The notes under the pieces are model-generated. The model worked only from the letters and a program-made list of their open reading frames with translations. It ran no database searches and was not told the origin of the DNA. DNA of 64,000 nt from Burkholderiaceae bacterium (GTDB lineage Bacteria > Pseudomonadota > Gammaproteobacteria > Burkholderiales > Burkholderiaceae_E), in NCBI GenBank assembly GCA_024637395.1, contig JAGXFG010000038.1, positions 1-64,000 on the forward strand, read 5' to 3'. Below, one piece after another: positions 35,277 through 56,893 of the stretch; the first letter of the stretch is position 1; each line of letters opens with the position of its first letter. Both the position numbers and the translations under genes were made by a program.

Positions 35277-36731
35277 GTGAAACAAGGTTCCCGCCTCGCC
35301 GCCCTGCGCTATCCAAGATCATTCCTCGAGCTCCTGGTACTAGGTTTTGGTCTGGTCGCACTGCCCCTGATCCTGGCGCTGTTGAACGCCGCGGCGGACG
35401 TCGATCGCCTCACCTCCCGGAGCCAGAGCGCAGTCGACAACGCGGCGGCGGCGGTGCGTAACAGTCGGGTGCTGATGGAGCAGGTCACGGCGATGGAGCG
35501 GCTGGCGCGGCAGTTCCTGATCCTGCATGACGCTGCCTTGCTCAATGATTACGCGAAAGTACGCGGCAATTTTGAACGCACTGCGAGTGAGCTGCTGCTC
35601 TTGCCCATCGACCCCCAGCAATTGCAGGCGATCAGCCAGACCGTCGAGCAGGAGGCAGTGGCGTTCGCGCAGTTGGGTAGCGCACCGGCTGCGGGTGATG
35701 GGCAGCAGCGTCTGATCCAGGCGTATGGTGCCTTGTCAGAATTTGCTGCCGAAGTGCAGACCCAGAGCAATCTGCTCATTGACCGCGAGGTCATGGCCAT
35801 GGGTGAAGCAGCGCGGCACGCCCAGCGTTCGATGTTGTGGCAACTGGTGGCCTCGTTCGCGTTCGGGGTGCTGATTGCCTGGCTGTTTGCGTATCTGCTG
35901 GCCAGGCCGATCCGCCAGCTTGACCGTGCCATCCGCCAGCTCGGCGGCGCCGATCTGGCGGCGCCGATTCAGGTGCGCGGTCCGGCCGATCTGGAACTGC
36001 TTGGCGATCGCCTCGAGTGGCTGCGCCAGAGACTGCAAGAGTTGCAGGAGCAAAAGAGCCGCTTCCTGCATACGGTCTCGCATGAACTGAAAACGCCGCT
36101 CACCGCGCTACGCGAGGGATCCGAGCTGCTGGCCGACGGAACGAGCGGCGCGCTGAATGCGCAACAGAGCGAAATCGCCGGCATCCTGCGCAGCAACAGC
36201 GTCCAGCTGCAGCGTCTCATCGAGGGTCTTCTCGGCTACCAGCAGGCGCTCAACAGCGTCGATCACCTGACGCTCGCAACCCTCGACCTGGCGGAGCTGG
36301 CACGCGAGGTTGCAGCAGCTCACAAGCTCGCCAGCGCCGCCCGCGACGTCAAGATCGAGCTGCGCCTCAAGCGCGCGGTGCTGAGCGCGGATCGCGACAA
36401 GCTGCGCGTCGTGCTCGATAACCTTTTATCCAACGCGGTCAAATTTTCACCCCACTCCGGCACGGTATCCTTGAGCGTCAAAACTCTTGCCGAGAGGGCT
36501 GTGGTCGACGTTCGCGACGACGGCCCCGGCATCCCCCCTGGCGACCGCGAACGGGTGTTCGACTGGTTCTTCCAGGGTAAGCTAGGTCATGAAGGGCGTA
36601 TCAAGAGCAGCGGATTGGGCTTGGCAATCGCACGCGAATTCGTGCAGGCACACCACGGCAGTATCGAGGTGATCGCCGGATCTGGTTCGGGGGCGCATTT
36701 GCGCGTGATCCTGCCGCTTCGGCATGCCTGA
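35277..36731 (+). CDS. glrK: Sensor histidine kinase GlrK (QseE)
   Basis: 484 residues from a GTG start. It has an N-terminal helix, a periplasmic helical sensor (about 30-175), a second helix (ASFAFGVLIAWLFAYLLA), a HAMP linker, and a HisKA motif SHELKTPLTALREG with the phosphorylated His at 269. The ATPase boxes follow: DNLLSNAVKFS (N), DDGPGIPPGDRERVF (G1) and SGLGLAIAREF (G2). It is followed directly by a QseG-like lipoprotein and by GlrR, the same order as the enterobacterial operon that responds to envelope state. Confidence 0.9.
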   Translation: MKQGSRLAALRYPRSFLELLVLGFGLVALPLILALLNAAADVDRLTSRSQSAVDNAAAAVRNSRVLMEQVTAMERLARQFLILHDAALLNDYAKVRGNFERTASELLLLPIDPQQLQAISQTVEQEAVAFAQLGSAPAAGDGQQRLIQAYGALSEFAAEVQTQSNLLIDREVMAMGEAARHAQRSMLWQLVASFAFGVLIAWLFAYLLARPIRQLDRAIRQLGGADLAAPIQVRGPADLELLGDRLEWLRQRLQELQEQKSRFLHTVSHELKTPLTALREGSELLADGTSGALNAQQSEIAGILRSNSVQLQRLIEGLLGYQQALNSVDHLTLATLDLAELAREVAAAHKLASAARDVKIELRLKRAVLSADRDKLRVVLDNLLSNAVKFSPHSGTVSLSVKTLAERAVVDVRDDGPGIPPGDRERVFDWFFQGKLGHEGRIKSSGLGLAIAREFVQAHHGSIEVIAGSGSGAHLRVILPLRHA

Positions 36732-36744
36732 GGAGCAGCAGAAC

Positions 36745-37305
36745 GTGATCCGCATCAGCCGTTACGCCGCCATCGCAATGATCCTCGCCGGGTGCGCCAC
36801 CAGCCAGCAGCCGGCCCCGACCGTCGTACTCGGCTCGGCCCCGCCGCCGCCGCCGCTTGCGCTTCCGGTGCCACTGCCGCGGATCGAACCGGCGCCCGTC
36901 ATCAGTGCCGAGGAGCGCGAAGTCATCGGATTGATTGAGTACGCGCAACGCGTGGCAGCGATGTCGCCCGAACAGAGACGTGCCGAACAAACCGTCCGCA
37001 ATCAGGCCTTTTCCCGGGACAAGGATGTCGCCAGCCGGTTGCGCCTAGCCCTCGTGCTGGCCACACCCGAGGCTGGTGTCGAGGACACGGCCCGCGCCGA
37101 GAGCCTGTTGCGACCCGTGGCCAGCTCCGGCGGTGACACGAGCCTGCCTCTGCGTTTGTTCGCCAAACTCCTCCATGGCCTGATCCACGAGAGCGCGGGC
37201 GAGAAGCAACGCGCCAACCAACTGCGCCATCAACTCGAGGCGCTCAAGGAGGTCGAGCGTTCGATGCTGCAGCGCAAACAGGACAACGAGCCACCACGAA
37301 AATGA
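36745..37305 (+). CDS. qseG: QseG-like outer-membrane lipoprotein
   Basis: 186 residues if started at the GTG at 36745, which follows GAGGAGCAG; an ATG at 36724 inside the glrK end is the alternative. The lipobox is ILAGC and the mature protein would begin CATS. A Pro-rich linker is followed by a helical domain that ends in a Glu/Arg/Gln-rich coiled region (LRHQLEALKEVERSML). In E. coli QseG sits in the outer membrane and controls GlrK. Its stop overlaps the glrR start. Confidence 0.78.
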   Translation: MIRISRYAAIAMILAGCATSQQPAPTVVLGSAPPPPPLALPVPLPRIEPAPVISAEEREVIGLIEYAQRVAAMSPEQRRAEQTVRNQAFSRDKDVASRLRLALVLATPEAGVEDTARAESLLRPVASSGGDTSLPLRLFAKLLHGLIHESAGEKQRANQLRHQLEALKEVERSMLQRKQDNEPPRK

Positions 37306-38666
37306 GCACACCCGGGCCTTTGATCCTGCTGGTCGACGATGACCCCGATATTCTCAAGCTGGTGGCGATGCGCCTGCACGCCGCCGGCTACGCGGTCGAA
37401 GCCGTCGACAGTGGCGCGCTCGCGCTGGCGGCACTGGCGCGTTCACGCCCCCGGTTGGTGATTACCGACCTGAAAATGGACGGGATGGACGGGATGGCGC
37501 TCTTTGAGGCGGTTCACAACGCGGCGCCAACGCTGCCGGTGATCATCCTGACCGCGCATGGCAACATCCCGGACGCGGTCGCGGCTACCCAGCGCGGCGT
37601 CTTCGGCTTCCTCCCCAAACCCTTCGACCAGCAGGCGCTGCTCGAGCAGGTCGCCCAAGCGATCAAGCTCTCGGCGGGCAACAACAACCCGCTCGCGCCA
37701 TCGGCGCCGGGCGAATGGCGCGACGGCATCGTCGCGGTCAGTGCGGTGATGGAAGACCTGCTCAGCCGGGCCCGGCTGGTGGCCCGCTCGGATGTCAGCG
37801 TGCTGATCTACGGTGCCAGCGGCACCGGCAAGGAATTGCTGGCTCGTGCGATCCATCGTGCCAGCGCCCGCGCCGCTGGGCCCTTCGTGGCGGTGAATTG
37901 CGCCGCGATCCCCGAGCCACTGATGGAATCAGAGCTCTTCGGACACCGCAAAGGAGCCTTTACCGGCGCGGCTCACGATCACAAGGGACTGCTGCAGCAC
38001 GCCGACGGCGGCACCCTGCTGCTCGATGAAATCGGCGACATGCCGGTGGCGATGCAGGCCAAGCTGTTGCGAGCTCTGCAGGAGCGGCAGGTGCGTCCGG
38101 TCGGGGCCAGCCAGTCGGTCGCCGTGACCATGCGGGTGATCTGCGCGACCCATCAGAGCCTGGAGGAAGGCATCGCCAACGGGCAGTTCCGGGAAGATCT
38201 TTATTACCGCCTGAACGTGGTGGCCCTGACCATCCCGTCGCTGGCGGAACGTCCGGAAGACATCCTCCCGCTTGCGACGTATTTCCTGCGCCAGGTGGCG
38301 CGGCATTATCACAAGAAGATCAGCAGCTTCGCCCCGGAAGCGCTTGAGCTGTTGGTCTCGGCCCAGTGGCCGGGCAACGTCAGGCAATTGCAGAACGTGG
38401 TCGAGCAAACCGTGGCGCTCGCCACCAACTCGATCATTCCGGCATCGCTGGTGCGCAGCGCGTTGGACGATCGTTCGCGCGGCCTGATTCCGCTCGATGA
38501 GGCGAGACGGGCGTTCGAGCTCGACTATCTGGTGAGCGTGCTCAAGATCACGCAGGGCAACGTCGCCCAGGCCGCCAAGCTCGCTCAACGCAACCGCACC
38601 GAGTTCTACCGCCTGCTCGAGCGTCATCAACTCGTGCCCGGGATGTTCAAGCCCGAAGACCAATAG
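37302..38666 (+). CDS. glrR: Sigma-54-dependent response regulator GlrR (QseF)
   Basis: 454 residues. Receiver domain with phospho-acceptor Asp56 in VITDLKMDG; AAA+ domain with Walker A (GASGTGKELLARAIH), the sigma-54 loop GAFTGA and Walker B (GGTLLLDEIGDM); C-terminal Fis-type HTH (GNVAQAAKLAQRNRTEFYRLLER). All motifs are intact. In enterobacteria GlrR binds TGTC-N10-GACA and activates sigma-54 promoters such as that of glmY. Two perfect such sites and a sigma-54 promoter lie right after this gene. Confidence 0.93.
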   Translation: MSTPGPLILLVDDDPDILKLVAMRLHAAGYAVEAVDSGALALAALARSRPRLVITDLKMDGMDGMALFEAVHNAAPTLPVIILTAHGNIPDAVAATQRGVFGFLPKPFDQQALLEQVAQAIKLSAGNNNPLAPSAPGEWRDGIVAVSAVMEDLLSRARLVARSDVSVLIYGASGTGKELLARAIHRASARAAGPFVAVNCAAIPEPLMESELFGHRKGAFTGAAHDHKGLLQHADGGTLLLDEIGDMPVAMQAKLLRALQERQVRPVGASQSVAVTMRVICATHQSLEEGIANGQFREDLYYRLNVVALTIPSLAERPEDILPLATYFLRQVARHYHKKISSFAPEALELLVSAQWPGNVRQLQNVVEQTVALATNSIIPASLVRSALDDRSRGLIPLDEARRAFELDYLVSVLKITQGNVAQAAKLAQRNRTEFYRLLERHQLVPGMFKPEDQ

Positions 38667-38695
38667 GCGCCGGCGCTCATCAGCGGCCGCAGCGC

Positions 38696-38713
38696 TGTCG
38701 GGCACCGGCGACA
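38696..38713. promoter_or_regulatory. GlrR-type binding site 1
   Basis: TGTCGGGCACCGGCGACA has the form TGTC-N10-GACA, the inverted repeat recognised by GlrR in enterobacteria. It lies about 150 bp upstream of the sigma-54 promoter, a usual distance for an enhancer. Confidence 0.75.
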
Positions 38714-38761
38714 GCACTTTTCGCTTGCCATCAGGCACTTAGCGCGCGGCGCCTGTTCGGG

Positions 38762-38779
38762 TGTCGGGAAGCGGCGACA
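38762..38779. promoter_or_regulatory. GlrR-type binding site 2
   Basis: TGTCGGGAAGCGGCGACA is a second exact TGTC-N10-GACA site, 66 bp from the first (about six helical turns, so on the same face). The spacers of the two sites also share GGG near the left and CGGC at the right end. Confidence 0.75.
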
Positions 38780-38854
38780 AATCCGTCCTCCAAGGCGCCT
38801 GCAGAGGCCTGCCCTCCAAGTTCTCACCATTGATTTATAAGGACAAAATCGCTC

Positions 38855-38870
38855 TGGCCCGCCACTTGCT
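38855..38870 (+). promoter_or_regulatory. Sigma-54 promoter in front of the fibronectin-cytochrome lipoprotein
   Basis: TGGCCC, five bases, TTGCT fits the sigma-54 consensus TGGCAC-N5-TTGCA with one mismatch in each block; the invariant GG and GC are present at correct spacing. Transcription would start near 38882, about 60 bases before the ATG at 38944. Together with the two GlrR sites this gives a complete enhancer-promoter arrangement. Confidence 0.78.
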
Positions 38871-38943
38871 TTAGACCTTGTTGCTAGCGCTGTGCGCCTT
38901 CCCGGGCGACGGCATGTTGGTACAACAAAACAGAGGAGCGGAT

Positions 38944-41055
38944 ATGAGAGCACAGACCATCCACCGATTCGGCAGTCCCCCGCGATTGCGGGATCTGGCG
39001 GGCGCGTTGCTGAAGCGAGGAAGTTCCGTCGTCGCGACACTCGGCCTGCTACTAGTCGGGGCCGTGCTGTCGGGCTGCGGCGGCGACGTCGACAGCCCCG
39101 TTTCACCCCTAGTCGTCGCCGGTGTGGCTGCAACCGGGGCGCCGTTGGCCGGACAGGTCAGCCTGCGGGACTCGTCGACGATCCGCAAGGAAAAGTCCAC
39201 CGTCATTGGCGGTGATGGTTCATTTGCAATTGACGTCGCCGATATGAAAGCGCCGTTCATTCTGAAGGCGACCGGCGTCGTCGATGGTGTCAGCCGTACG
39301 ATGTATTCGTTTGCGAAAGGGCCGGGGGTAGCGAACATCAACCCACTCTCATCCGCGGCGGTTGCCAGCGCGGCTGGGATCGACAATCCGGCCTCGGCGT
39401 ATGAAGAGACCGATGCGGTGACCATGGAGAGAGTTCGGCTCGCGCTGCCAATGAACGTCGAAGCGCTGCAAACCCAGCTCAAACCCCTGCTTGACGTCTT
39501 CAGCGCCGCCGCCACCAACCCGGTCACGGGCGACTACAAGGCCGATCACCAGGGCCTCGACGGCGTCTTCGACCACATCAAGGTGGTGGTCATCGACGGC
39601 GTTCTGAACATCACCAACGCCGAGACCGGAGCGATCCTGTTCACCGCCCCGGCCAGCAACGTCCGCAAAGGTCACTTCACCGACCGCGACGACGACATCC
39701 CGAAGTACGGTTCCCGTCTGGCGGCTCCGACCGAGGTTCAGGCCGTGGCCGGTGATGCCAAGGTGACGATTTCCTGGACTCCGGTCACCAATGCCACCTC
39801 CTACAACATCTCCTGGTCAACCAAGTCGGCAGTCACGACCGAAGAGGACGAGCATCACGCACAATCAATCAGCAATGCCACCAGCCCCTATGTTCATACC
39901 GGGTTGGACACCGGCACGACCTACCATTACGTCGTGCGCGCGGTGAAGGGCGGTCGCAGTGGTTACGCGTCGGCCGAAGTTTCGGCGACTACCAGCTCGA
40001 CGACGCCGGTCGTAACCATTCCGGGTGCGCCGATCAACGTGAGCGCCACCGGCGGAACCAGTCAGACGACGGTTTCATGGGCGCAGGTTACGGGTGCCAC
40101 GTCGTACAACCTGTATTGGTCGAACACGCCCGAGGTAACCACCCTCAACGGCACCTTGGTCACCGCAGCGACGAGTCCGGCGGTGCTTACCGGGTTGCCC
40201 GACAGCACGGCGTTCTACTACATCGTCACCGCCGTAAACAGCGCGGGCGAGAGCACAGCCTCGGTGCAGGTTGCGGCAACCACTTTGGCTGGCGCTCCGC
40301 CGCCGCCAGCCGTTCCGACTGCGCCGACCGGCGTGGCAGCTACCGGTGGCGACAATCAGGTGACGCTTAGCTGGGCGCCAGTCGACGGTGCGGCTTCGTA
40401 CAACGTGTACTGGGCCAGCACTTCAGGAGTTAGCACGGGGTCGACCAAGGTTGCCGCTCTTTCCAGCCCGTTCATCCATACCGGACTGGGTGCCAGCAGC
40501 ACCTACCACTACATCGTCACCGCGGTGAACGCGACCGGCGAGAGCAGTGCTTCAGCTGAGGTCGCAGCGACGACCAACGCGCCCGCAGCAGTGTTTCCGG
40601 CGACACCGACGGGAGTCGCGGCGACCGGCGGCAGCAAGCAGGTCAGTGTTTCCTGGAACACAGTCACAGACGCAACCTCGTACAACGTGTACGAGTCGAC
40701 CACGAGCGGCTTTACGCCGGGGCCGTCGACACTGGTGCGCACCGGCGTGACCAGTCTGCCCTATGTTCAGACCGGCCTAGCCGATAGCACGACCTATTAC
40801 TACAAGGTCACTGCGGTAAATACCACTGGGGAAGGTCCGGCATCGACCCAGGCCAGTGCGACCACAAGCACTCCCGCACCGGTGATTGATGGTGCAGCGT
40901 TGTACACGCAGTACTGCAGCGGTTGCCATGGTAATGGCAAGAAGGGCAAGTCGGTGACGGCAATCAACAACGCGATCTCTAGCAACCGCGGAGGCATGGG
41001 ATTCCTCAGCACCCTGACGCAAGCGCAGATCGCGGCGATTTCGGCCGCTCCGTAA
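38944..41055 (+). CDS. Lipoprotein with four fibronectin III domains and a minimal c-type cytochrome domain
   Basis: 703 residues from the ATG at 38944 (GAGGAG upstream). A long basic start precedes a hydrophobic segment and the lipobox LSGC-GG. Residues about 60-255 are a region without recognised family, possibly an Ig-like or carboxypeptidase-regulatory-type fold. Four FnIII repeats start near 260, 360, 460 and 554, each with the TxVSW ... TSYNxY ... TTYHYxVTAVN pattern. The last 50 residues hold one heme motif CSGCH (658-662) and a possible Met ligand in GGMGFL. An outer-membrane or surface role with electron transfer is inferred. Its control region points to GlrR. Confidence 0.8.
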   Translation: MRAQTIHRFGSPPRLRDLAGALLKRGSSVVATLGLLLVGAVLSGCGGDVDSPVSPLVVAGVAATGAPLAGQVSLRDSSTIRKEKSTVIGGDGSFAIDVADMKAPFILKATGVVDGVSRTMYSFAKGPGVANINPLSSAAVASAAGIDNPASAYEETDAVTMERVRLALPMNVEALQTQLKPLLDVFSAAATNPVTGDYKADHQGLDGVFDHIKVVVIDGVLNITNAETGAILFTAPASNVRKGHFTDRDDDIPKYGSRLAAPTEVQAVAGDAKVTISWTPVTNATSYNISWSTKSAVTTEEDEHHAQSISNATSPYVHTGLDTGTTYHYVVRAVKGGRSGYASAEVSATTSSTTPVVTIPGAPINVSATGGTSQTTVSWAQVTGATSYNLYWSNTPEVTTLNGTLVTAATSPAVLTGLPDSTAFYYIVTAVNSAGESTASVQVAATTLAGAPPPPAVPTAPTGVAATGGDNQVTLSWAPVDGAASYNVYWASTSGVSTGSTKVAALSSPFIHTGLGASSTYHYIVTAVNATGESSASAEVAATTNAPAAVFPATPTGVAATGGSKQVSVSWNTVTDATSYNVYESTTSGFTPGPSTLVRTGVTSLPYVQTGLADSTTYYYKVTAVNTTGEGPASTQASATTSTPAPVIDGAALYTQYCSGCHGNGKKGKSVTAINNAISSNRGGMGFLSTLTQAQIAAISAAP

Positions 41056-41338
41056 TCCGGCAGTAAGCAGTTGACTGGTGAAGGGCCCCGCAAGGGGTCC
41101 TTTTCTTTGTGGTGTGGCTAGCGCGCCGCCCGATCTCTCGACCAGCCGCTAACGCGCGCCGAGCTCGATCCGTGTAGCCCTCGTACAAGAAGATTTCGCT
41201 CCGATCGTCCGCGACGACGCAAACATCGAACTGCCGGCAACCCGGCTCAAGTTCGCACGACATCCGCGCATTGGCGACGATCTCGGAACGAAACGCCGCG
41301 GCGTGCTCCGGCTTGGTGACGAATTCGACCACGACCAC
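41006..41338 (-). pseudogene. Truncated ABM-type monooxygenase
   Basis: The first 57 residues (VVVEFVTKPEHAAAFRSEIVANARMSCELEPGCRQFDVCV to LYEGYTDRA) are a good N-terminal half of an antibiotic-biosynthesis-monooxygenase (quinol monooxygenase type) protein. The C-terminal half then turns into unrelated Arg/Ala-rich sequence that runs back into the 3' end of the opposite gene. The usual ATG seems missing; only GTG codons are available. It is probably a deletion remnant facing the sugar cluster, which contains an intact ABM gene. Confidence 0.55.
41083..41107 (+). terminator. Rho-independent terminator after the lipoprotein gene
   Basis: GGGCCCC and GGGGTCC form a stem around GCAA, followed by TTTTCTTT. 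It lies 30 bp after the stop codon and is the clearest intrinsic terminator in the window. Confidence 0.85.
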
Positions 41339-41428
41339 GTGAACGGTACATTATTTCCGCCTCATTGCTGTGTAAAATTGCACAGCGACGCACGGACAGC
41401 CAAGGCCTGAAAGGCCTGCTGCTGAATA

Positions 41429-41447
41429 GACTAAAGTATTATTAGTC
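41429..41447. promoter_or_regulatory. Inverted repeat in front of the sugar cluster
   Basis: GACTAAAGTATTATTAGTC has perfect 6-bp arms (GACTAA/TTAGTC) around 7 bases. It ends 22 bp before the ATG of the isomerase gene, in AT-rich sequence, where a repressor could block the promoter. No regulator gene is present in the cluster itself. Confidence 0.45.
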
Positions 41448-41469
41448 GATAACCATCGCCGGACAAATC

Positions 41470-42015
41470 ATGCTCACGCGAAAAGAATTTGAAGAAGCAA
41501 AACAAGCTGCTTTCAGAATGATCAGTGATTCAGGTGTTCATATCTTGCCGGAAGAAATCGACAAGATTAATGTTGCTGATTTCGGGCTTAGCGATCTGGC
41601 CAACCAGGGCATCGAGGTTTTCACCATGTTTGCCACTGAAAGGATCAGCGCCAAGGTTTTGGTTCTATTTCCAAACCAGACCGAGCCCGAGCACTGGCAT
41701 CCGCCTGTAGATAGCGATCCGGGCAAGGAAGAAATAATCAGGGCCATAAAGGGAAAGGTCAGATTTTATATTCCGGGGGAAGATAATATGAAGGAAGGCT
41801 TCATTCCCAAGGGCAAGGACGCGTTCTATACCTGCCGGAACGAGATCGTCCTGCAACCCGGTGACCAATTAACCTTGCCACCGGGAACCCCGCACTGGTT
41901 TCAAACGGATCAGGAAGGCGCTGTCATGTACAGCTTTTCGACCTGTGTCAGGGATGTTCTGGATGGTTTCACCGATCCGAATATCGTCCGCACAACGCAA
42001 ATTGTCGAAGGGTAA
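41470..42015 (+). CDS. D-lyxose isomerase-type cupin sugar isomerase
   Basis: 181 residues, cupin fold. The metal ligands of the D-lyxose/D-mannose isomerase family are visible: His and His in EHWHPP, Glu in KEEIIRA, and His in PPGTPHWF. The enzyme would convert D-lyxose to D-xylulose (or D-mannose to D-fructose). An FGGY kinase of the xylulokinase type 2 kb downstream could phosphorylate the product, which supports the lyxose/xylulose reading. Codon use is visibly less GC-rich than that of the neighbours upstream. Confidence 0.82.
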   Translation: MLTRKEFEEAKQAAFRMISDSGVHILPEEIDKINVADFGLSDLANQGIEVFTMFATERISAKVLVLFPNQTEPEHWHPPVDSDPGKEEIIRAIKGKVRFYIPGEDNMKEGFIPKGKDAFYTCRNEIVLQPGDQLTLPPGTPHWFQTDQEGAVMYSFSTCVRDVLDGFTDPNIVRTTQIVEG

Positions 42016-42171
42016 GAGTCCCCGGCACAGCCGGCGGGCCTCCCTTGGTAGCTAGCTAGCCGTCATGTTTTTGCAGAATGAATGGAATTGCCCGGGCGGT
42101 GCGACGACGTGTAATCAACCCAGCGTCTGATCCACGGTTGTTTTAATCATTAATCAAGAGGAAGCTTTGCT

Positions 42172-42486
42172 ATGATTCATGTAATTGCTTATGTCAAAAT
42201 GAAGCCGGGCATGATTCCGAAGGCGCTCGACTGCTATCGCGTTCTGCTGCCGCAAATTTTTGCCGCCGAGAAAAGTTGTCTCGAATATAGCCCGACGATC
42301 GACTTTGACATCGGCGCCGTCAATCAGAACAAGGATGCCAATATGATCGTCGTGCACGAGCGCTGGGCAGCGATCGACGACTTCAAGGCACATCTCACCA
42401 TGCCGCACTCGGCCGAGTTCCGCGCCAGTATCAAGGATTTTCTCGAAGAGCGCATCACCGTCACGATTACCCAGGACGCCCTCTGA
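42172..42486 (+). CDS. ABM-domain protein (putative quinol monooxygenase type)
   Basis: 104 residues, a ferredoxin-like alpha/beta fold. The pattern IHVIAYVKMKPGMIPKALDCY, SCLEYSPTID, NMIVVHERWAAIDDFKAHLTMPHSAEF is standard for the family, including the conserved His. Many such small proteins sit in sugar or aromatic operons with unproven roles. It lies 50 bp upstream of the TIM-barrel isomerase and is likely in the same operon as the lyxose isomerase. Confidence 0.82.
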   Translation: MIHVIAYVKMKPGMIPKALDCYRVLLPQIFAAEKSCLEYSPTIDFDIGAVNQNKDANMIVVHERWAAIDDFKAHLTMPHSAEFRASIKDFLEERITVTITQDAL

Positions 42487-42535
42487 GCCGCCCGGCAAGT
42501 CCTGAACAACCACATCGCATAGAAGGAAAAGTCAC

Positions 42536-43495
42536 ATGAAACAAAGTGTCATCCTCGCCTTCATGGCCAACACCCAAGACCGCTTTTGCAATTACCACAG
42601 CGCCAAGAGCACTTATGAAAAACTGCAATTGATTCAGCAGATCAAAGGCCTTGACGGCGTGGAATTGGTATACCCGCACGATACTTCCACCCCGGAAGAA
42701 ACCAGCGCAATGATGAAGGAACTTGGCCTGAATTTCGCCGCCATCAACGCCAATATCAAGAAAGACCCGAAATTTCACGCCGGCAGCCTGTCGCGACCGA
42801 ACAAGGAAATTCGTGACGAGGCGGTCAACATCATCAAGCGCGCCAAGGATTTTGCCAAAGCGGTCGGTGCGCCTCACGTGACCACCTGCCCGTTGACCGA
42901 CGGTTACGATATGCTGTTCCAGATCGACTACAAGGCAGCATGGCGGTACATGATCGAAACGGTGGCCGAGGCCGCCGATTACCTGCCGGAAATCCCGCTC
43001 TTCCTCGAACCGAAGTTTTCCGAAACGCGCGTCCATTGCCAGCTTGACAGCACGTCCAAAGCGTTGCTGCTGCTCAAGGAAGTCGGCAACAAGCATACCG
43101 GTGTCACGCTAGATGTCGGGCATTCGATGCAGAGCCAGGAGAATCCGGCGCAGATGCTGGTGACCACGCTGGAATCGGGGTTTGACGTCTATATCCACAC
43201 CAACGACAACGACACCAAGGCCGACTGGGATCTGGTCGGCGGCAGCCGGCATTTCCTCAACTACGTCGAACTGCTGTTCTGGGCCAAGGAATACGGCTAC
43301 GACAAGTATTACACGGCCGATGCTTCGCCGAGAATTTTCAATGTCGTCGATTTCTTCGAGCGTCATACCGAAGTCAGCCTGGGAATCTGGAATCTGGTCA
43401 ACACGCTGGACCCGAAGAAATATCGCAAGCTGATGGCTGAGGAAAACTACAACGAATTGATGCGCTTGGTGAACAAGGAAATATATCGGGTTTGA
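42536..43495 (+). CDS. Sugar isomerase/epimerase, TIM barrel (xylose isomerase-like fold)
   Basis: 319 residues. The barrel pattern is visible: GLDGVELVYPHD, NFAAINANI, APHVTTCPLTDGYD, PLFLEPKFSE (metal Glu), GVTLDVGHS (metal Asp/His), VYIHTNDND and the final acidic strand YYTADASPR. It is a member of the AP-endonuclease-2-like superfamily, and the substrate is a sugar or sugar phosphate not identifiable here. GAAGGAAAAG precedes the ATG. Its 3' end abuts the IS30 remnant. Confidence 0.82.
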   Translation: MKQSVILAFMANTQDRFCNYHSAKSTYEKLQLIQQIKGLDGVELVYPHDTSTPEETSAMMKELGLNFAAINANIKKDPKFHAGSLSRPNKEIRDEAVNIIKRAKDFAKAVGAPHVTTCPLTDGYDMLFQIDYKAAWRYMIETVAEAADYLPEIPLFLEPKFSETRVHCQLDSTSKALLLLKEVGNKHTGVTLDVGHSMQSQENPAQMLVTTLESGFDVYIHTNDNDTKADWDLVGGSRHFLNYVELLFWAKEYGYDKYYTADASPRIFNVVDFFERHTEVSLGIWNLVNTLDPKKYRKLMAEENYNELMRLVNKEIYRV

Positions 43496-43498
43496 AAA

Positions 43499-44082
43499 GC
43501 CTGACGGATGAGGCCATTCATATTCTCGTTGGCGGCGCGTGCTTTTGACCCGCACCGATGACCAAATCGCCCTCCCAATCACCGAAGCGGGACCGCTCGG
43601 CGACGTACACCGGGCGCAGGTCGATGGATCCTGGTTGGGAATCGTGACTCGCCGCTCGCGTCCGCCATAGCGTTTTCGTCGGATCTTCTGGCAGCGCAAG
43701 GCGCGGTGTAAGGTGCCGCCCGCACGCTTGCCGACATAGATGCGCTGACAGATAGCCTCGTGGCTGACTGGGGGTTGGCCCGCGACTTTGAGGTGGCCGG
43801 TGATTTGTTCCGGACTCCAGGTCTCGGCCAGCTTGACCTCGACGATCGCCCAGGTTTCGGCGGCAAACACGTGGGCCGTTCTCACAGGCTCGCATGCGGG
43901 CCTGTGAGAACGCCTGCGCTTGCTTAGGTCGGTAGCCGCGCTCCGCAATTGCGCCGCATTTCTCGGCCAATGGTCGATTTGTGGCGATTCATCATGCGGG
44001 CAATGTCACTTTGGTCATGTCCAGCCTTGTTAAGGATGGCAATCTGGTAACGTTCGTCTTGGCTGAGATGTGTGTAATTCAT
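43499..44082 (-). mobile_element. IS30-family transposase remnant with internal deletion and frameshifts
   Basis: Starting at the ATG at 44082 the minus strand encodes MNYTHLSQDERYQIAIL and an HTH (DQSDIARMMNRHKSTIGREMRRN), which is the IS30 N-terminus. The reading then shifts frame several times through PVSHEAICQRIYVGKRAGGTLH, RRKRYGGRERR and SRFGDWEGDLVIGAGQKHA, which carries the first catalytic Asp. From there it jumps to ANENMNGLIRQAF, the IS30 C-terminal motif. The core with the other catalytic residues is missing, so the element is dead. It lies between the isomerase and kinase genes. Confidence 0.85.
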
Positions 44083-44194
44083 TCTAGACAACTTTGACTT
44101 AGCGGTCTAGGGGCCGGATGTTCTCACATCTCGCCCACTCAACCAGTTAATCAGAGTTGCACTTCGAGTTTGAACTCGCGCTATTCGTTAGAAA

Positions 44195-45865
44195 ATGGTT
44201 ATGCAACATAACTTCCGAACTGTCCTTGGCATAGATGCCAGCACCCAGAGTATGAGTGCTGTATTACTGCACATCAGCTCCGGAAAAATCCTCTGGAGCC
44301 ATTCGTTGGCTTACCGTGACGATCCCCGCCTGCTCGGCTTCGGTTTCGAACACGACACCCTGATTATCCCGGCTCGTGAGTCCGGAGAAGCCGAACAACC
44401 ACCGCGCCTGTTTATCGCTGCCCTTGAAGCCTTGCTCAGCGACATGAAAGACGCCGGATTCGACACGTCGACCATCGCCGCCATCAATACTTCCGGGCAG
44501 CAACACGGCCATGTCTACCTGAACGGTCATGCCAAGGCGGCCTTTGCCCGATTGCGGGAGCCCTCCAGCGCCAACGACAATCTACTGAGTACACTGACCG
44601 ACTGCTTCGCCTACGGTGGCGCTCCGATCTGGAAAACCGCCAACACTGCGGCTGAAGCCGCCCATATCCGTGCCGCCGTCGGTGGCAAGGCGGCGATTAT
44701 CCAGCGTATCGGGAGCGATATCCCCCTGCGATTTGCGGCCACCGTCCACCGCAAGCTAGCCGGCCGTTACCCGGAAAGCTACGCGGCCACTCGCCATATC
44801 GTGCAAATCTCCAGCTTGATTCCGGCCATCCTGGCAGGCGACTGCACCATTCCGATTGATTTCGGCAATGCCTGCGGCACCGGCCTGATGAATTACCAGG
44901 CACGGGCTTGGGACGACACTGTTCTGCAAGCAGTAGCCGGCGACCTTCCCGGAGGTTCGGCTGCACTGGCCAGCAAACTGGCCCCCATAGCCCATCCCCT
45001 GGCCGTGTGCGGTACCGTAGCCGCTTACTTTCAGGTCAATTATGGTCTTTCACCCGATTGCCGGATTATCGCAGGCTCAGGCGACAACCCTCAATCGAAG
45101 GTTCTGGCCAGTGGCGATCTGTTAAGTCTGGGCACCAGTTTTGTCTATATGATCTCCAGCCCGGATGGCAGCGTAGATGTCACCGGAACGGCCAACGCCA
45201 TGTATGACGGTCTCGGCCGCCCCTTCAACTTCGTTTGCCGCACCAACGGGGCGCTGGTTTGGGATCGACTGCGACTCCGGCACGGACTGGGCGCCAAAGA
45301 TTATGCTGCTTGCGACGCAGCACTGCACGGCACTCTGCCGGGAGGCCTGCTGCGTTTCTGGCATCCCGACACTGAAACCTTCCCGACCGTGGCATCCAAG
45401 TCCGAACAGGTGCGACTAGATCAGGAACCGGTCAACTTCGCCAGCGATTTTAGCGCCGTGGTCGATAGTTCGCTCGGCCTGGTCTACCGCTATGGGATGA
45501 AGATCGCCGATACTGCTGCCAGTACGCGCCAACGCACCATGGGCATCTGCGTCTGCGGCGGGCCATCCACCAGCCCGGGAATCATGAGCCGTATTGCCGC
45601 CATCTGGAACCGACCGGCCATACAAGCTGGGCAAGCCGGAGCAGCGCTCGGGGCAGCAGTCGCGGCGGCAGTGGCGATGGTTCGTAAAAACGAGCGCGAC
45701 GCCACGGCCGAAAAACTTCGTCAGGCCATTTTCACCGGCAAGGCTATCATTCATCCTGATCCGGCCATGGTTCAAGCCTACCACGCTCCAGGTGGCTACC
45801 TCGACCAACTGGAAGTCGCCTTTGAAAAGCTTCGGATTTATACCAATAGGGAATGGGGGAAATGA
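44195..45865 (+). CDS. FGGY-family carbohydrate kinase (xylulokinase-like)
   Basis: 556 residues. The phosphate-1 motif is GIDASTQSMSAVLL, the ADP-binding region includes GSGDNPQSKV and LGTSFVYMISS, and the C-terminal GICVCGGPSTSPGIMSRIAAI is the FGGY signature. It would phosphorylate a ketopentose such as D-xylulose, the product of the lyxose isomerase upstream. The family also covers ribulose and glycerol kinases, so the sugar is inferred from context. No transporter gene is in this cluster. Confidence 0.88.
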   Translation: MVMQHNFRTVLGIDASTQSMSAVLLHISSGKILWSHSLAYRDDPRLLGFGFEHDTLIIPARESGEAEQPPRLFIAALEALLSDMKDAGFDTSTIAAINTSGQQHGHVYLNGHAKAAFARLREPSSANDNLLSTLTDCFAYGGAPIWKTANTAAEAAHIRAAVGGKAAIIQRIGSDIPLRFAATVHRKLAGRYPESYAATRHIVQISSLIPAILAGDCTIPIDFGNACGTGLMNYQARAWDDTVLQAVAGDLPGGSAALASKLAPIAHPLAVCGTVAAYFQVNYGLSPDCRIIAGSGDNPQSKVLASGDLLSLGTSFVYMISSPDGSVDVTGTANAMYDGLGRPFNFVCRTNGALVWDRLRLRHGLGAKDYAACDAALHGTLPGGLLRFWHPDTETFPTVASKSEQVRLDQEPVNFASDFSAVVDSSLGLVYRYGMKIADTAASTRQRTMGICVCGGPSTSPGIMSRIAAIWNRPAIQAGQAGAALGAAVAAAVAMVRKNERDATAEKLRQAIFTGKAIIHPDPAMVQAYHAPGGYLDQLEVAFEKLRIYTNREWGK

Positions 45866-45957
45866 GTTTTAACATCAGAACATTTCCCCCAGGGCTAATA
45901 TTCAGTTGGTGATCTTCGCCCCAGTAAATCGAACACGGGGATAAGTGATAGCATTGC

Positions 45958-46349
<392 letters not shown>

Positions 46350-46360
46350 CTATGGCTGTG

Positions 46361-47260
46361 TCAATTCGCATCGCAACTTGCTTCCAGATGTTCAACAAAA
46401 GCTCGAGCGGTAAATGGCAAATTGGCTCGGCCTCGGAACATGATGCAAATTAGAGGGTGCGCCCAAGAGTCCGTGAGTGGCACAAAGCGCAGGTTATAGG
46501 CCGGCCCATAAGCTTTCGCCAAAAATAACGGTACTATACCAATGCCCATACCGATTCCAATCATATGGCATACGCCTTCAAAGCCTCTCACTCGTATAAG
46601 TGTCTTCTTGACGAGAGAGCTTTGCTTGGCGGCATAATCGAGCAGTTGGGCAAGAGCACTAGATTGAGGTTGCTCTACATGCTCGTAATTTAAGGTTTCT
46701 TCATATCGCAACGACGCGTAACTGCTCAATTCATGACCGTCTGGTACCGCAACGGCAAGGTCATAATGTTTGTAGGGAATCAATTCAAGTTCATTGTTCA
46801 ATAAAAGGTTTGGCGCGATTCCAACATCAGCTCGACCTTCGATTACATCGCGAACAATTAGAGGCGTCTCACGCTCCTCGAATTCCAGCTTGATGTCACT
46901 ATGTTTTGTTTTGAAGACCATTATTTGTTCCGACACACCCGCTGCCAGCGCTGACGCACTGACGCGTACGCGCAAATGGCCACGCACGCCCTTCACGTAA
47001 TCATCCATCTCTGACTGCATCTGATTGAACGCTAGGATGACTTGGCGCGCATGGTGGGCCATGGCCTCACCAGCCGATGTTAGGCGGACGCCTTGCTGAC
47101 TGCGTTCTAACAGTGCAACACCGACCGACGCCTCCAATTCCTGCAATCGCTTGCTAATCGCAGAACTTACCAAGTGCTCACGTAACGCCGTTTTGGCGAT
47201 GCTGCCTTCCTCGGCAACAGTCAGAAAGATTTGTGCTGATCGAATGTCCAAGCGTCGCAT
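46361..47260 (-). CDS. LysR-family transcriptional regulator
   Basis: 299 residues. The N-terminal winged HTH (LDIRSAQIFLTVAEEGSIAKTALREHLVSSAISKRLQELEASVGVALLERS) is typical, followed by a two-lobed effector domain (FKTKHSDIKLEFEER, GRADVGIAPNLL, GIGMGIGIVPLFLA). It is divergent from the HMG-CoA-lyase gene and probably controls that island in response to its substrate. Codon use is AT-richer than in the flanking chromosome. Confidence 0.9.
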   Translation of the reverse strand: MRRLDIRSAQIFLTVAEEGSIAKTALREHLVSSAISKRLQELEASVGVALLERSQQGVRLTSAGEAMAHHARQVILAFNQMQSEMDDYVKGVRGHLRVRVSASALAAGVSEQIMVFKTKHSDIKLEFEERETPLIVRDVIEGRADVGIAPNLLLNNELELIPYKHYDLAVAVPDGHELSSYASLRYEETLNYEHVEQPQSSALAQLLDYAAKQSSLVKKTLIRVRGFEGVCHMIGIGMGIGIVPLFLAKAYGPAYNLRFVPLTDSWAHPLICIMFRGRANLPFTARAFVEHLEASCDAN

Positions 47261-47419
47261 CGTGAAGATCCATCACTATTGAAGAGGGGGGGGGCCTCAG
47301 ATGTTCAGTTTCCACGATGGCTGCAAGTGGCGATGATATTAATCAACGAATCAGCCGCATCAATGGTCAGTTCTCATTAGCTCGATAGAGTTCAATTAAA
47401 ACCAGGAAGCTAGACACTT
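47261..47419. promoter_or_regulatory. Divergent promoter region with a 9-G tract
   Basis: This 159-bp gap separates the LysR gene from the catabolic genes and should hold both promoters and the LysR site. A run of nine G occurs at 47286-47294, about 26 bp upstream of the LysR start. No -10/-35 pair or clear T-N11-A pair stands out. Confidence 0.45.
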
Positions 47420-48397
47420 ATGCAAAACCAGAACATTGCGCCTTCCTCCACTAGTAGGGACAAACCATTTGTGATCGTAACTGAGGTCGGAACACGGGAT
47501 GGTCTACAAATCGAGAAAACCTTTGTTCCGACCGAGAAGAAAATTGAACTGATCAACGATATGATCGCTGCGGGGATACGCAGTATTGAGGTGACGTCAT
47601 TTGTGTCACCGAAGGCCGTCCCCCAGATGGCCGATGCCGAAGAAGTATTGGCCGGTATAGCCAAACGCTCCGACACGCGCCTATCAGCCTTGGTTCCGAA
47701 TTTGCGCGCGGCCGAGCGAGCAGTGCGTACCCCGGCGGACGCGCTAGTACTGCTTTGCTCCGCCTCGAACACCCACAACCGCAAGAACCTCAATCGTAGC
47801 GTCGATGAAACGATTGCGAGATTTCCGGAAGTAGCAAGTTGTCTTCTGGCGGGTGCCAACCCCAAAAAAGTGATTGGCGCAGTCGCTACGGCGTTTGGTT
47901 GCCCGTTCGAAGGTGACATTGCGATTTCCCAAGTGCTAAAGATCGCCACCGGTTATGTGAAAGCCGGCGCAACCGAGATTACTCTTTCGGACACAACAGG
48001 CATGGCAACGCCGGTCAATATTCGTGCTTTGGTTCGCGCGGTTCGTGCTGAGTTACCCAATGTTGATCTAGCACTACATCTCCATAACACGCGTGGCATT
48101 GGCCTGGCAAACGTCTTAGTGGGACTGGGAGAAGGTATCACACGGTACGACTCCTCGATGGGTGAGCTCGGCGGATGCCCATTTGCAGCCGGAGCGACCG
48201 GGAACATCTGCACGGAAGATCTTCTATATCTGCTTGCCGAGTCCGGCTACGAGACCGGAGTCGACCTTGAAAAAGCGATTGCAATCGCACTTAAGGCCGA
48301 AACAATTCTGGGCAGGCGTCTGACCGGACAGGTCATGCGTTCCGGACCACGGCTCCGCTTGCACGCCGCCGACGCAGTCGCCACTGCAGCGGGGTGA
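47420..48397 (+). CDS. HMG-CoA lyase family protein
   Basis: 325 residues, TIM barrel of the DRE-TIM family. The motif VGTRDGLQ carries the catalytic Arg-Asp, LALHLHNTRG the metal His pair, and GGCPFAAGATGNICTEDLLYLL the conserved active-site Cys loop. The enzymes cleave 3-hydroxy-3-methylglutaryl-CoA or a similar tertiary 3-hydroxyacyl-CoA to acetyl-CoA and a keto acid. It is followed at 4 bp by a CoA-transferase that could make the CoA ester. Confidence 0.9.
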   Translation: MQNQNIAPSSTSRDKPFVIVTEVGTRDGLQIEKTFVPTEKKIELINDMIAAGIRSIEVTSFVSPKAVPQMADAEEVLAGIAKRSDTRLSALVPNLRAAERAVRTPADALVLLCSASNTHNRKNLNRSVDETIARFPEVASCLLAGANPKKVIGAVATAFGCPFEGDIAISQVLKIATGYVKAGATEITLSDTTGMATPVNIRALVRAVRAELPNVDLALHLHNTRGIGLANVLVGLGEGITRYDSSMGELGGCPFAAGATGNICTEDLLYLLAESGYETGVDLEKAIAIALKAETILGRRLTGQVMRSGPRLRLHAADAVATAAG

Positions 48398-48401
48398 TCA
48401 A

Positions 48402-49589
48402 ATGGTAGCTCCACTAGCAAACATCAAGGTTGTTGACCTGACCCGCATTCTTTCCGGTCCGTTCTGCACGATGCTTCTCGGCGATATGGGCGCCGATGTG
48501 GTCAAAATTGAAGGACCGGACGATGGCGATCCCATCCGCCAATTGGGAACTATCGTCAATGGGTTCTCGACGTACTTCGCGTCATTCAACCGCAATAAGC
48601 GTTCCATAACGCTCGACCTGCGTAGCACTGCCGGCAAGGAAGTGCTCAGCGAACTTATTCAAAAGGCGGACGTGCTGGTTGAGAATTTCCGGCCTGGTGT
48701 GCTTGACGCGATGGGTCTCACGGCCGAACGTCTGGAGTCGCTCAATCCGCGCCTGATCGTCGCGTCAATCAACGGCTATGGTTCGTCTGGACCATACTCG
48801 CAGCGGCCAGCCTTTGACTTCATCGCGCAGGCGATGAGCGGATTTATGAGTTTGAACGGCGGGCCGAACGATGGGCCGACCCGCTCTGGCGTTCCAATCA
48901 CCGACTTGGTGGCAGGGCTCTACTCCGCATACGGCATTGTTAACGCACTGCGCGTGCGTGACTTGACGGGACGTGGTCAGCGCATCGAGGCGGCGATGGT
49001 TGATTCCATCATGAGCATGTTCGCCTGGTATGCGTCGGACCATCTGGCAACCGGCAATCCCCCCGTTCGCAGCGGCAATAGACATCCAATCGCGGCGCCA
49101 TACGGCATGTTTGCTGCAAGCGACGGTGGCATCGCGGTAGCTCCTAGCACCGAGGCCGTGCTGGACAAGTTCCTCGCTGAAATCGGACTTTCTAACCTTC
49201 GAGATGATCCCCGCTTCGCAAGCAATGCTTTACGCATGAAGCATCGGGCCGAGCTTGATGTGATCATCAATGAGCGCGTTGCTACCGATACTCAGGCGAA
49301 CTGGATCTCTCGACTCAACCGCGCCGGAGTGCCATGCGGTGTCGTCCAGGAACTGAAGGAAGCCTTTACGGATCCTCAGACGCTACATCAGGAGATGGTT
49401 ATATCGGTCGAGCATCCGGGACACGGAGCAATTCGTATGCTTGGTTTCCCTGTAAAACTCTCCGATACGCCCTGCTGCGTTCGACTCCCCGCCCCCGAAC
49501 ATGGCGCGCATAACGCCGAGATCGCTGAAGACTGGCAACTCGCATGTCGGGATCTAATTGTGTCCGCAATGCCCAAGATTACCGCCTGA
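48402..49589 (+). CDS. CaiB/BaiF family CoA-transferase
   Basis: 395 residues. The N-terminal motif KVVDLTRILSGPFCTMLLGDMGADVVKIE and the catalytic Asp in GVPITDLVAGLYSAYGIV (family III) are present. It moves CoA to a carboxylic acid. The pairing with an HMG-CoA-lyase relative suggests that it activates a hydroxy- or methyl-substituted dicarboxylate before cleavage. The stop overlaps the next leader region by nothing; the isomerase starts 13 bp later. Confidence 0.9.
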   Translation: MVAPLANIKVVDLTRILSGPFCTMLLGDMGADVVKIEGPDDGDPIRQLGTIVNGFSTYFASFNRNKRSITLDLRSTAGKEVLSELIQKADVLVENFRPGVLDAMGLTAERLESLNPRLIVASINGYGSSGPYSQRPAFDFIAQAMSGFMSLNGGPNDGPTRSGVPITDLVAGLYSAYGIVNALRVRDLTGRGQRIEAAMVDSIMSMFAWYASDHLATGNPPVRSGNRHPIAAPYGMFAASDGGIAVAPSTEAVLDKFLAEIGLSNLRDDPRFASNALRMKHRAELDVIINERVATDTQANWISRLNRAGVPCGVVQELKEAFTDPQTLHQEMVISVEHPGHGAIRMLGFPVKLSDTPCCVRLPAPEHGAHNAEIAEDWQLACRDLIVSAMPKITA

Positions 49590-49602
49590 GCAGGAAATCT
49601 CC

Positions 49603-50388
49603 ATGTTCAAATTTTCTGCAAATCTTTCCACCCTGTTCCAGGAAGTATCTCTTGCACAGCGTTTTGAGTCGGCAGCTCGGGCCGGATTCGATACGGTTGA
49701 GATATGGTTCCCTTATGAATTGCCTACGCAGGATGTTCGCGAATTGCTGCATGTTAATCGACTTAAATGCATCGGCATTAACACGCCAGCAGGAGATGTC
49801 ACCAGGGGTGATTGGGGGCTCGCTGCCGATCCGGCCCATCGCACGCAGTTCGACGTCAGCCTCGATGTGGCTTTTCGTTATGCACAGCAAATCGAATGTT
49901 CGAACGTCCACGTAATGGCGGGGCATCGAAGCGAGTCGGTCTCTTTACAGGCTGCATGGGAAAACTACCTGCACTGCATCGGAACAGCCTGCGATCGTGC
50001 GAGCGACTATGGCTTGACGGTCATGATAGAGCCGCTCAATGCCATTGATCGTCCACTTTATTTGTTGCAAACCCAAGCACAGGCAATTGAAGCCGTTTTA
50101 ACGCTCAATAGGAACAATCTGAAAATTATGCTCGACATCTATCACCTGCAGCGCGGTGAGGGAAATCTGATCGAGAGAATGCGGGCATCTATTCCATACG
50201 CCGCACACATTCAGATTGCCGACAATCCAGGGAGACATGAGCCTGGAACAGGTGAAATTAATTTTTCATCGGTTTTCGCGGCTATCCAAACAAGCGGATA
50301 CGCCGGCCATATCGGGTGCGAATACTCGCCCACGGGGAATAGCTGCGACAGCTTTGCGTGGCTTCTTCCCTATGCGGACAAGAAATAG
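49603..50388 (+). CDS. Hydroxypyruvate isomerase family protein (Hyi/OtnI)
   Basis: 261 residues from the ATG at 49603, after AGGAAA. The family signature is strong: MIEPLNAIDRPLYLL (metal Glu), LKIMLDIYHLQRGEGNL (Asp, His), and AHIQIADNPGRHEPGTGEINF near the end. Hyi converts hydroxypyruvate to tartronate semialdehyde, and OtnI converts 2-oxo-tetronate to 3-oxo-tetronate. The actual substrate here is unknown. Confidence 0.88.
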   Translation: MFKFSANLSTLFQEVSLAQRFESAARAGFDTVEIWFPYELPTQDVRELLHVNRLKCIGINTPAGDVTRGDWGLAADPAHRTQFDVSLDVAFRYAQQIECSNVHVMAGHRSESVSLQAAWENYLHCIGTACDRASDYGLTVMIEPLNAIDRPLYLLQTQAQAIEAVLTLNRNNLKIMLDIYHLQRGEGNLIERMRASIPYAAHIQIADNPGRHEPGTGEINFSSVFAAIQTSGYAGHIGCEYSPTGNSCDSFAWLLPYADKK

Positions 50389-50457
50389 TCACCAGAATAG
50401 GCACAGGCCTATGCAAGCCAAGAACCACAAAACAAGCTAATAAGTGAGTCAATACCA

Positions 50458-51465
50458 ATGACATACCAATTACCCCGTGATTTTCAGATTAAGTTCGAGG
50501 ATCTTCGTATTGTCGCGGATGGTCTCACTCGGCCAGAGTGCGTTCTAGCGTTATCAAATGGCCGTCTCGTCGCTGCGAACGGCTCCGGCGGTTACTCAGT
50601 TATTGAGTCGAACGGCAAGGTCCGACACGTTATGCTTAAGGCTGGTAGTGACAGGAAATATGTGCCTAATGGCATTGCTCTGGTTCCGTCTGGGCATGTT
50701 CTCTTTGCGGATCTCGGCGCCCAGGCAGGCGGTATCTTTTCGATCGATGGCTCCGGCAACCTCGCTACCGTGCACGACACATTGAATGGAGAACCGATTC
50801 CACCGAGCAACTTTGTTGTAAATGATAGAGAAGGACGACTATGGTTCACTGTCAGCACACGTCTCCAACCCCGTACTAAAGCATGGAGTCACGATATTGC
50901 AGATGGCTACGTTGCCGTGGTTGATTCGAAAGGCGTAAGAATCGTCGCCGATGGGATTGGCTATGCCAATGAAGTTGCTTTCTCTCCTGACGGCCAATGG
51001 GTATATGTCAACGAGACGTACAACCAGCGCACCAGCCGCTATCCGTTGCGAGCCGATGCATCGCTAGGCCCAAAGGAGGTTGTTGCTTCATATGAGGGCG
51101 CAGATTTTCCGGATGGTCTGACCTTCGACACGCACGGTGGAGCTTGGGTTACCTGTATCGGTAGTAATCGGCTTATCGTGCTTCGCCCCGACGGTTTGCA
51201 ACAGACCGTTCTTGAGGACACCGACACGGAATACGCGCAAATCCTCGCGCAGAAACTTCGCACAAAGACGCTGACGCAAGTTGATATGAGCACGGCTGGG
51301 CGTACGCGCCTAGGCAACATTTCTAGTCTTGCATTCGGTGGCCCGTCGCTTAAGACGGCATATCTTGGCTGCCTGCTGGGGACGTGTATCAGGGCATTCG
51401 ATAGTCCAGTGCCCGGTATGAAACCGATTCACTGGGACCGTGATGTACTGCTGCCGGCTTCCTAA
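50458..51465 (+). CDS. SMP-30/gluconolactonase-like protein
   Basis: 335 residues, six-bladed propeller of the SMP-30/LRE family. Metal-ligand phrases include TRPECVLALSNG (Glu near the start), VPNGIAL, GYANEVAFSPDGQWVYVNET and FPDGLTFDTHGG. It is expected to hydrolyse a sugar lactone. A decayed close relative lies at 58509-59272 in the second cluster. ATG chosen; no strong alternative. Confidence 0.85.
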   Translation: MTYQLPRDFQIKFEDLRIVADGLTRPECVLALSNGRLVAANGSGGYSVIESNGKVRHVMLKAGSDRKYVPNGIALVPSGHVLFADLGAQAGGIFSIDGSGNLATVHDTLNGEPIPPSNFVVNDREGRLWFTVSTRLQPRTKAWSHDIADGYVAVVDSKGVRIVADGIGYANEVAFSPDGQWVYVNETYNQRTSRYPLRADASLGPKEVVASYEGADFPDGLTFDTHGGAWVTCIGSNRLIVLRPDGLQQTVLEDTDTEYAQILAQKLRTKTLTQVDMSTAGRTRLGNISSLAFGGPSLKTAYLGCLLGTCIRAFDSPVPGMKPIHWDRDVLLPAS

Positions 51466-51666
51466 CGGTGCTGGACGAGCATTTGATTAGACGTAAAATG
51501 GAGGCTCAATTTAACATTCAACGAACTCAGGCCATCGGTAGGTCACGTTGAACGCATGTACGACTCATCATCTTTATTAGAAATCTTGGCGCGTTCGGGG
51601 AACGCACCAGCCAAAGCTTAAGCTGTTACGCATATTTATCTCGTTAATAGAAAATCTGGAGAAAAC

Positions 51667-52464: not shown

Positions 52465-52593
52465 CTTTCAACCAACGGCATCTTCACTTAACGGGACTCG
52501 CCACACGATGCGATCGAGGTTACCCTCGCATAGTAGTATTTTTTTATCTCCGCAATTACAGCGGATTCCCTAACTTCCGATCCGAACACTTTC

Positions 52594-53069
52594 ATGAACA
52601 ACGTCATTGAAACCACCGTTGCGACTGAGATTGCATCGACGTTTAAGAAGTCTGGAGTTGATCGCCTCTTTCTACTGACTGGCGGCGACCAGCACTATAG
52701 ATTGCCTTGCGTGATGCCGGGACCCAAATGATCCTTGGCCGCAGAGAACCCCGCGCTGTCCACATGGCCGACGGTTACGCACGAGCGGCTAGCGTGGTTG
52801 CAGCGATCCATGGCCAAGCTGGTCCAGGTACCGCCAACGTGGATGCTGCCCTTGCCGATGCGTACTGGGCTCAATCCCAGGTGTTTGCATTGACAGGTCC
52901 GACCGACTCTAACGCAATGTACGCGACCGAATACCAGGACATCGATCTATACACGATGTTTGGGCCTGTTACCAGGGGGAATGGGCGGGCGGAACCCAAA
53001 GGAGCCTCCCGGCAGCTCCGGAAGTTTACCTCAGTGAATTATGATTCCTTGCTGTTAACCTTTGCATAA
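52594..53069 (+). pseudogene. Truncated and frameshifted thiamine-diphosphate enzyme
   Basis: The start ATG at 52594 gives STFKKSGVDRLFLLTGGDQ, the N-terminus of a ThDP enzyme, and soon meets a stop. The homologous reading resumes in another frame near 52707 with ALRDAG, HMADGYARAASVVAA, HGQAGPGTANVDAALADAYW and MFGPVTRGNGRAE, then ends after about 150 residues where more than 540 are usual. The catalytic ThDP-binding C-terminal domain is missing. It was probably once part of the island's pathway. Confidence 0.8.
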
Positions 53070-54340: not shown

Positions 54341-54453
54341 TGCTGTGGCGCAACACTATATTCTTTGATTTTACGGTTGCTGGCGGTCGGCTAGAGGATG
54401 TTAAGCGTATAAACTCCTCTACCGACCCCGTATAAAATAGCTGGGACAGACCC

Positions 54454-56811: not shown

Positions 56812-56893
56812 TTTCGCCGTTCTGTGGAGTAGAAGCAGACGACCAGTGCGTGAAGGGAAGTTCTTTAAACATACATAGAGGAGAAAGTAGACA

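Follow-up and report, generated by a model that had tools for sequence, protein, structure and literature searches.

A predicted GlrR-dependent sigma-54 promoter for a lipoprotein gene directly behind glrK-qseG-glrR in a Burkholderiaceae bacterium

The intergenic region between glrR and a lipoprotein gene was analysed in the window, the whole 64-kb stretch of DNA under study. The region was read as a GlrR-dependent sigma-54 promoter for the lipoprotein gene, operating with GlrK/QseG signalling and IHF bending and having a heme-lipoprotein as its output; a probability of about 0.83 was assigned to this reading. The analysis established the anatomy of the region, its conservation, its co-occurrence with glrR, the same control of an orthologous lipoprotein gene in another family, the intact reading frames and the presence of the rpoN gene in the window's genome.

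Results

The intergenic gap is 277 bp long, as read from the window, and extends from the glrR stop codon (38666) to the ATG of the lipoprotein gene (38944). Two predicted upstream activating sites of the exact form TGTC-N10-GACA were located at 38696-38713 (site 1, TGTCGGGCACCGGCGACA, with conserved position and spacing) and 38762-38779 (site 2, TGTCGGGAAGCGGCGACA), 66 bp apart from start to start, and no other such sequence occurs in the window. A sigma-54 -24/-12 element follows on the forward strand at 38855-38870 (TGGCCCGCCACTTGCT) with GG and GC intact, scoring 0.95 of the maximum of our own consensus. Its bases 4-6 are CCC against the usual CAC, giving a -24 half of TGGCCC against TGGCAC. 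The distance from the start of site 2 to the -24 element is 93 bp, and a palindrome is found at the same distance in genomes G346 (with one mismatch), G424 and G458. The sequence-only reading had described two exact palindromes behind glrK-qseG-glrR and a sigma-54 promoter with intact GG and GC, and both were recovered here.

The transcript is expected to start near 38881, and the predicted 5' leader of about 63 nt (38881-38943, forward strand) carries a ribosome-binding site GAGGAG at 38933-38938. The folding of this leader was no better than that of shuffled sequences and no Rfam family scored above threshold in it. A GlmY/GlmZ match in Rfam was absent from the 34-43 kb interval, and a protein gene with a ribosome-binding site was found under the promoter instead. 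A small RNA as the product of the promoter was ruled out on the basis of the Rfam result and the unremarkable leader fold. A terminator-like stem-loop lies 3' of the lipoprotein gene (41080-41103, forward strand).

A candidate IHF-like site was present on the minus strand at 38823-38835 (AATCAATGGTGAG), offset 32 bp upstream of the -24 element and agreeing with 7 of 9 consensus positions; its left half fits well and its right half poorly. The loci scanned for this element were not chosen for the IHF consensus, and a match was taken as at least 7 of 9 positions on the minus strand. Of 45 loci, 32 had such a match 31-33 bp upstream of the sigma-54 element, with the offset exactly 32 in 23 of them; other offsets were seen in at most 4 of the 45. 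The loci without an exact palindrome also showed an IHF-like match at 31-32 bp (12 of 19).

The frequency of the palindrome was compared with chance expectation. Two were observed in the window against 0.85 expected, and at least two occurred in 18 of 100 shuffles. The whole genome (G000) contains 31 copies of TGTC-N10-GACA against 10 of the mirrored pattern, and with 31 in the genome the palindrome count alone was dropped as evidence. The combination of palindrome and promoter is far above chance and conserved. A composite pattern, defined as a good sigma-54 element preceded at 60-260 bp by an exact palindrome, was present 3' of glrR in 43 of 88 loci (the window, which is counted, and 87 others from the same order, Burkholderiales), compared with 17 of 3144 segments taken from these loci as controls. 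The exact site with promoter was absent from 45 of the 88; some of these have near matches and some may have other layouts. The spacing was 65-67 bp for 18 of the 23 neighbouring palindrome pairs in the glrR loci compared, and the site consensus across loci was near TGTCGCC-N4-GGCGACA.

A stricter pattern (palindrome, 60-90 bp, TGGCMY-N5-TTGC) was scanned in 399 genomes of the order, a check already suggested by the sequence-only reading. It was found in 63 genomes at 75 places, with a single place for the mirrored control. The pattern tracks glrR, occurring in 52 of 152 genomes with the gene and 11 of 247 without it (odds ratio 11, p 4e-15), where the counts are per genome rather than per independent origin and many of the genomes are MAGs. 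In the window's own genome the only match was the 38696-38870 region, and a search there for further GlrR targets gave no other palindrome with a strong sigma-54 element suitably placed. Distant GlrR-like loci (Salinisphaerales, Desulfocapsa and Hahella; 48-56%) showed no comparable region behind the gene. The GlrR query against wider genome contigs returned the G346 record (JAJZPQ010000030.1) and otherwise mostly other activators. Palindromes of the form TGTCA...TGACA were also seen before sigma-54 elements at loci L220 and L221 and at places in G127, G201, G231 and G215, some of them genomes without glrR; this form may be the site of another activator.

The genes preceding the control region lie on the forward strand, and all four reading frames of the cassette are open. 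The glrK (qseE)-like sensor kinase gene (35277-36731, GTG start) encodes HAMP, HisKA and HATPase_c domains with 33% identity to E. coli GlrK over 453 amino acids. Two of its arginines, Arg75 and Arg78, correspond in the alignment to Arg70 and Arg73 of enteric QseE, which PMC12691602 gives as QseG-contact residues. The qseG-like accessory lipoprotein gene (36724-37305) sits between glrK and glrR and has a lipoprotein signal. E. coli QseG gave no match to its product by BLAST; a profile of the syntenic homologues and the window protein matched E. coli QseG weakly (E 1.7e-6; the best of 200 shuffles gave 4e-4). The glrR (qseF)-like gene (37302-38666) encodes a sigma-54 activator with receiver, AAA+ and Fis-type HTH domains, 55% identical to E. 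coli GlrR over 450 amino acids, in which the receiver Asp and the GAFTGA loop are present. The recognition helix reads NRTEFYRLL in the window and NRTEFYKLL in E. coli GlrR. The NCBIfam GlrR equivalog PRK15115 was the best of 107 families (584.8 bits; next NtrC, 407.7), and since this score is below the cut-off of 763 the regulator is named GlrR-like and not an enterobacterial equivalog. In family f10 an extra small lipoprotein-like gene was noticed between glrR and the control region (L037, L072, L073, L190), which the window does not have.

The target gene (38944-41055, forward strand) encodes a lipoprotein of 703 amino acids with a lipobox LSGC (Cys45), four FN3 domains and a C-terminal CSGCH (DNA 40915-40929). 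The fibronectin and cytochrome domains of the sequence-only reading were confirmed in part: Pfam returned four fn3 stretches and the CXXCH motif CSGCH is present, but the cytochrome domain scored 24.8 bits, below the 27-bit cut-off. Orthologues were found in the genomes of four species (G346, G424, G458 and G459) of family f10, genera g157 and g181, and three of them keep both lipobox and CSGCH. The G346 orthologue is full length, 58% identical and preceded by the same kind of promoter. In G459 the orthologue is not beside glrR and its neighbour is a methylenetetrahydrofolate reductase gene (judged by eye), yet two sites are present with a promoter-like element 92 bp on. Thus the site and promoter, whose retention upstream of orthologues had been proposed as a check, are kept in all four genomes, and this conservation supports the earlier claim that a putative GlrR/sigma-54 control region is aimed at the lipoprotein gene. 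Remote homologues (27-39%) elsewhere in the order were rejected as further controlled copies, as none had site and promoter. The lipoprotein query against wider genome contigs gave no matches.

A second set of sites with a sigma-54 promoter follows the lipoprotein gene in G346 and G424, leading to a glycine-zipper 2TM protein. It lies at about 7720-7900 of L190 (G424) and about 2.9-3.06 kb behind glrR in L072 (G346); in the window, this second control region and its glycine-zipper target are absent after the lipoprotein gene.

The slot behind glrR is filled by varied genes in the order. Pfam analysis of representatives revealed glycine-zipper 2TM, EF-hand with BON, BON, CsbD, MdoG (OpgG) and OpgH-like glycosyltransferase proteins, and others without a family; the FN3-heme lipoprotein is shared by the window only with the four f10 genomes. 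As these are varied protein genes, a protein target is the norm in the order and the enteric sRNA is the exception. On the GlrR tree at least 26 changes were required for 11 target labels, of which 'other' and 'no promoter' partly reflect detection rules, and the labels were more clustered than shuffled ones. The two results together indicate that targets are passed on by descent inside a clade and swapped from one clade to another. Two further arrangements were observed. The opgG/opgH genes of periplasmic glucan synthesis lie behind a GlrR-type promoter at L133, L138, L142, L146, L147 and L216-L218, mostly directly behind glrR, and a conserved small protein of 50-57 amino acids is encoded directly behind a GlrR-type promoter in family f38 (L075, L077, L089).

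The cassette lies at the left end of an island of 24.3 kb (35134-59416) that is missing in three congeners. These genomes (G001, G002, G003) show the empty site: sequence that matches the window up to about 35.13 kb is followed at a short distance by sequence that matches from about 59.4 kb, so that the aldo-keto reductase gene at window 35.13 kb is closely followed in them by the gene at window 59.4 kb. Contamination of the MAG contig was ruled out, as the 21.5-35.1 kb DNA left of the island matches the congeners by up to 92% and synteny is kept on either side of the island. The sample of the window's family comprised 24 further genomes, the three congeners included, and in none of them was GlrR detected at the threshold used. 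The glrK-to-lipoprotein DNA gave good matches in f10 genomes only (64-77%), and the window's GlrR groups with those of G346, G424 and G458 with support 100/100. Because the three congeners show the empty site and GlrR groups with another family, the self-contained cassette of kinase, accessory lipoprotein, regulator, promoter and target was probably imported as one unit; a history in which only this genome has kept it is less likely. The rest of the island (41000-57500) has a G+C of 0.47-0.58 against about 0.65, and its genes resemble sugar or organic-acid catabolism and a TRAP-type transporter. An IS30-type transposase-like fragment was noted by eye inside the island (43109-43948, minus strand).

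Discussion

From these features a route of control can be proposed, in which we infer the signal, the phosphorylation and binding steps, the part played by IHF, the start of the transcript, and both heme attachment and role of the lipoprotein. An envelope signal would reach GlrK, helped by QseG, and GlrK would phosphorylate GlrR. GlrR would then bind both palindromes, whose centres lie near positions -176 and -110 relative to the predicted start. IHF would bend the DNA at about -58 to -46, such that GlrR meets the sigma-54 RNA polymerase at 38855-38870, and ATP hydrolysis by GlrR would open the promoter. The output would be a secreted heme-carrying FN3 lipoprotein, probably acting in an envelope-stress response.

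The known E. coli glmY region supports the assignment of the sites. Its control region has three GlrR/QseF sites, IHF and sigma-54, with IHF assisting GlrR and a site consensus TGTN12ACA (PMC6075780); the GlrR site consensus is also given as TGTCN10GACA (PMC8745638). In E. coli glmY, TGTCGCTTTCTGGCGACA and TGTCTCTTTTTAGCGACA are separated by 63 bp and a third site is also present, in agreement with the earlier reading of the inverted repeat as the form of the glmY GlrR site. The two regions share the extended TGTCG...CGACA palindrome, similar pair spacing (63 bp in E. coli, 66 bp in the window), a sigma-54 element and the glrKGR neighbourhood. They differ in that the window has two sites and not three, lies behind glrR whereas the E. 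coli region lies before glrK, drives a protein and not an sRNA, has the -24 half TGGCCC, and shows no sigma-70 promoter. The gene order kinase-lipoprotein-regulator and the contact arginines conserved in the window are in accordance with the qseEGF three-component systems of Pseudomonadota, as far as these are described in the accessible text of PMC12691602. The GlrR loci of the order with glycine-zipper, BON, EF-hand-BON, CsbD or OpgG/OpgH genes likewise have paired sites, an IHF-like site and a sigma-54 element directly behind glrR; their target genes are different from the FN3-heme lipoprotein of the window.

Other explanations of the region were weighed against GlrR control. The palindromes could be intrinsic terminators of the glrK-qseG-glrR transcript and not protein sites, since a terminator-like hairpin is scored for site 1 together with its flanking bases, and the outermost of the ten inner positions are mostly complementary (0.87, 0.75, 0.65). 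However, complementarity drops to 0.44 and 0.32 towards the palindrome centre, at least five T in the next 10 bases occur at only 12 of 68 sites, and neither the 65-67 bp pairing with a kept distance to the sigma-54 element nor the sites preceding the lipoprotein gene away from glrR in G459 favours termination, which was given only a very slight chance. Use of the promoter by another sigma-54 activator, with GlrR linked by neighbourhood only, would account for the 11 genomes that have the pattern and no glrR, several of the TGTCA...TGACA type. The association with glrR across the 399 genomes makes this very improbable, as does the glmY-like extended form, which is kept at the unlinked orthologue promoter in G459.

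It was also considered that expression of the lipoprotein depends chiefly on a sigma-70 promoter or on read-through out of glrR. No sigma-70-like site was found on the forward strand in 38600-41500 and the intergenic gap carries the conserved sigma-54 layout, leaving this route little probability. An imported relic, with sites and genes intact but silent or uncoupled in the host, is unlikely: the absence of glrR from the congeners and the rest of the sampled family, the deviating -24 half and the missing second target of related cassettes point towards it, whereas the four open frames, the rpoN gene and a site-to-promoter distance identical to the base with G346, G424 and G458 speak against it.

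The sequence-only reading had also suggested a different regulon output in this lineage. The predicted output is indeed a protein gene and not a small RNA; as a protein target is the rule in the order, the enterobacterial sRNA is the wrong yardstick, and the genomic comparison indicates that the genus did not inherit this output vertically. A wider account appears reasonably likely, in which a slot behind glrR with two GlrR sites, IHF and sigma-54 is conserved across the order and has had envelope genes swapped in many times. Here kinase, accessory lipoprotein, regulator, slot and target would have been transferred together from one family to another, as a single plug-in unit; at an earlier stage the FN3-heme lipoprotein, bringing a slot copy of its own, would have been inserted ahead of the older glycine-zipper target.

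To our knowledge, the targets of the GlrR system are known mainly from enterics (glmY, rpoE), and the open-access literature yielded no description of comparable GlrR targets in non-enteric bacteria. According to PMC12691602, the GlrK-QseG-GlrR system is known across Pseudomonadota; the accessible text deals with qseEGF distribution and the QseG-QseE contact, and non-enteric targets or binding sites are not among its subjects. Through the conserved slot, probable direct targets of GlrR can be named in numerous other genera, and many of these are envelope genes (glycine-zipper, BON, OpgG/OpgH, heme lipoprotein). In this way the question of GlrR-system targets outside enterics becomes testable with one reporter design. 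On this view the theme that unites the system would be envelope quality control, with the sRNA an enteric special case.
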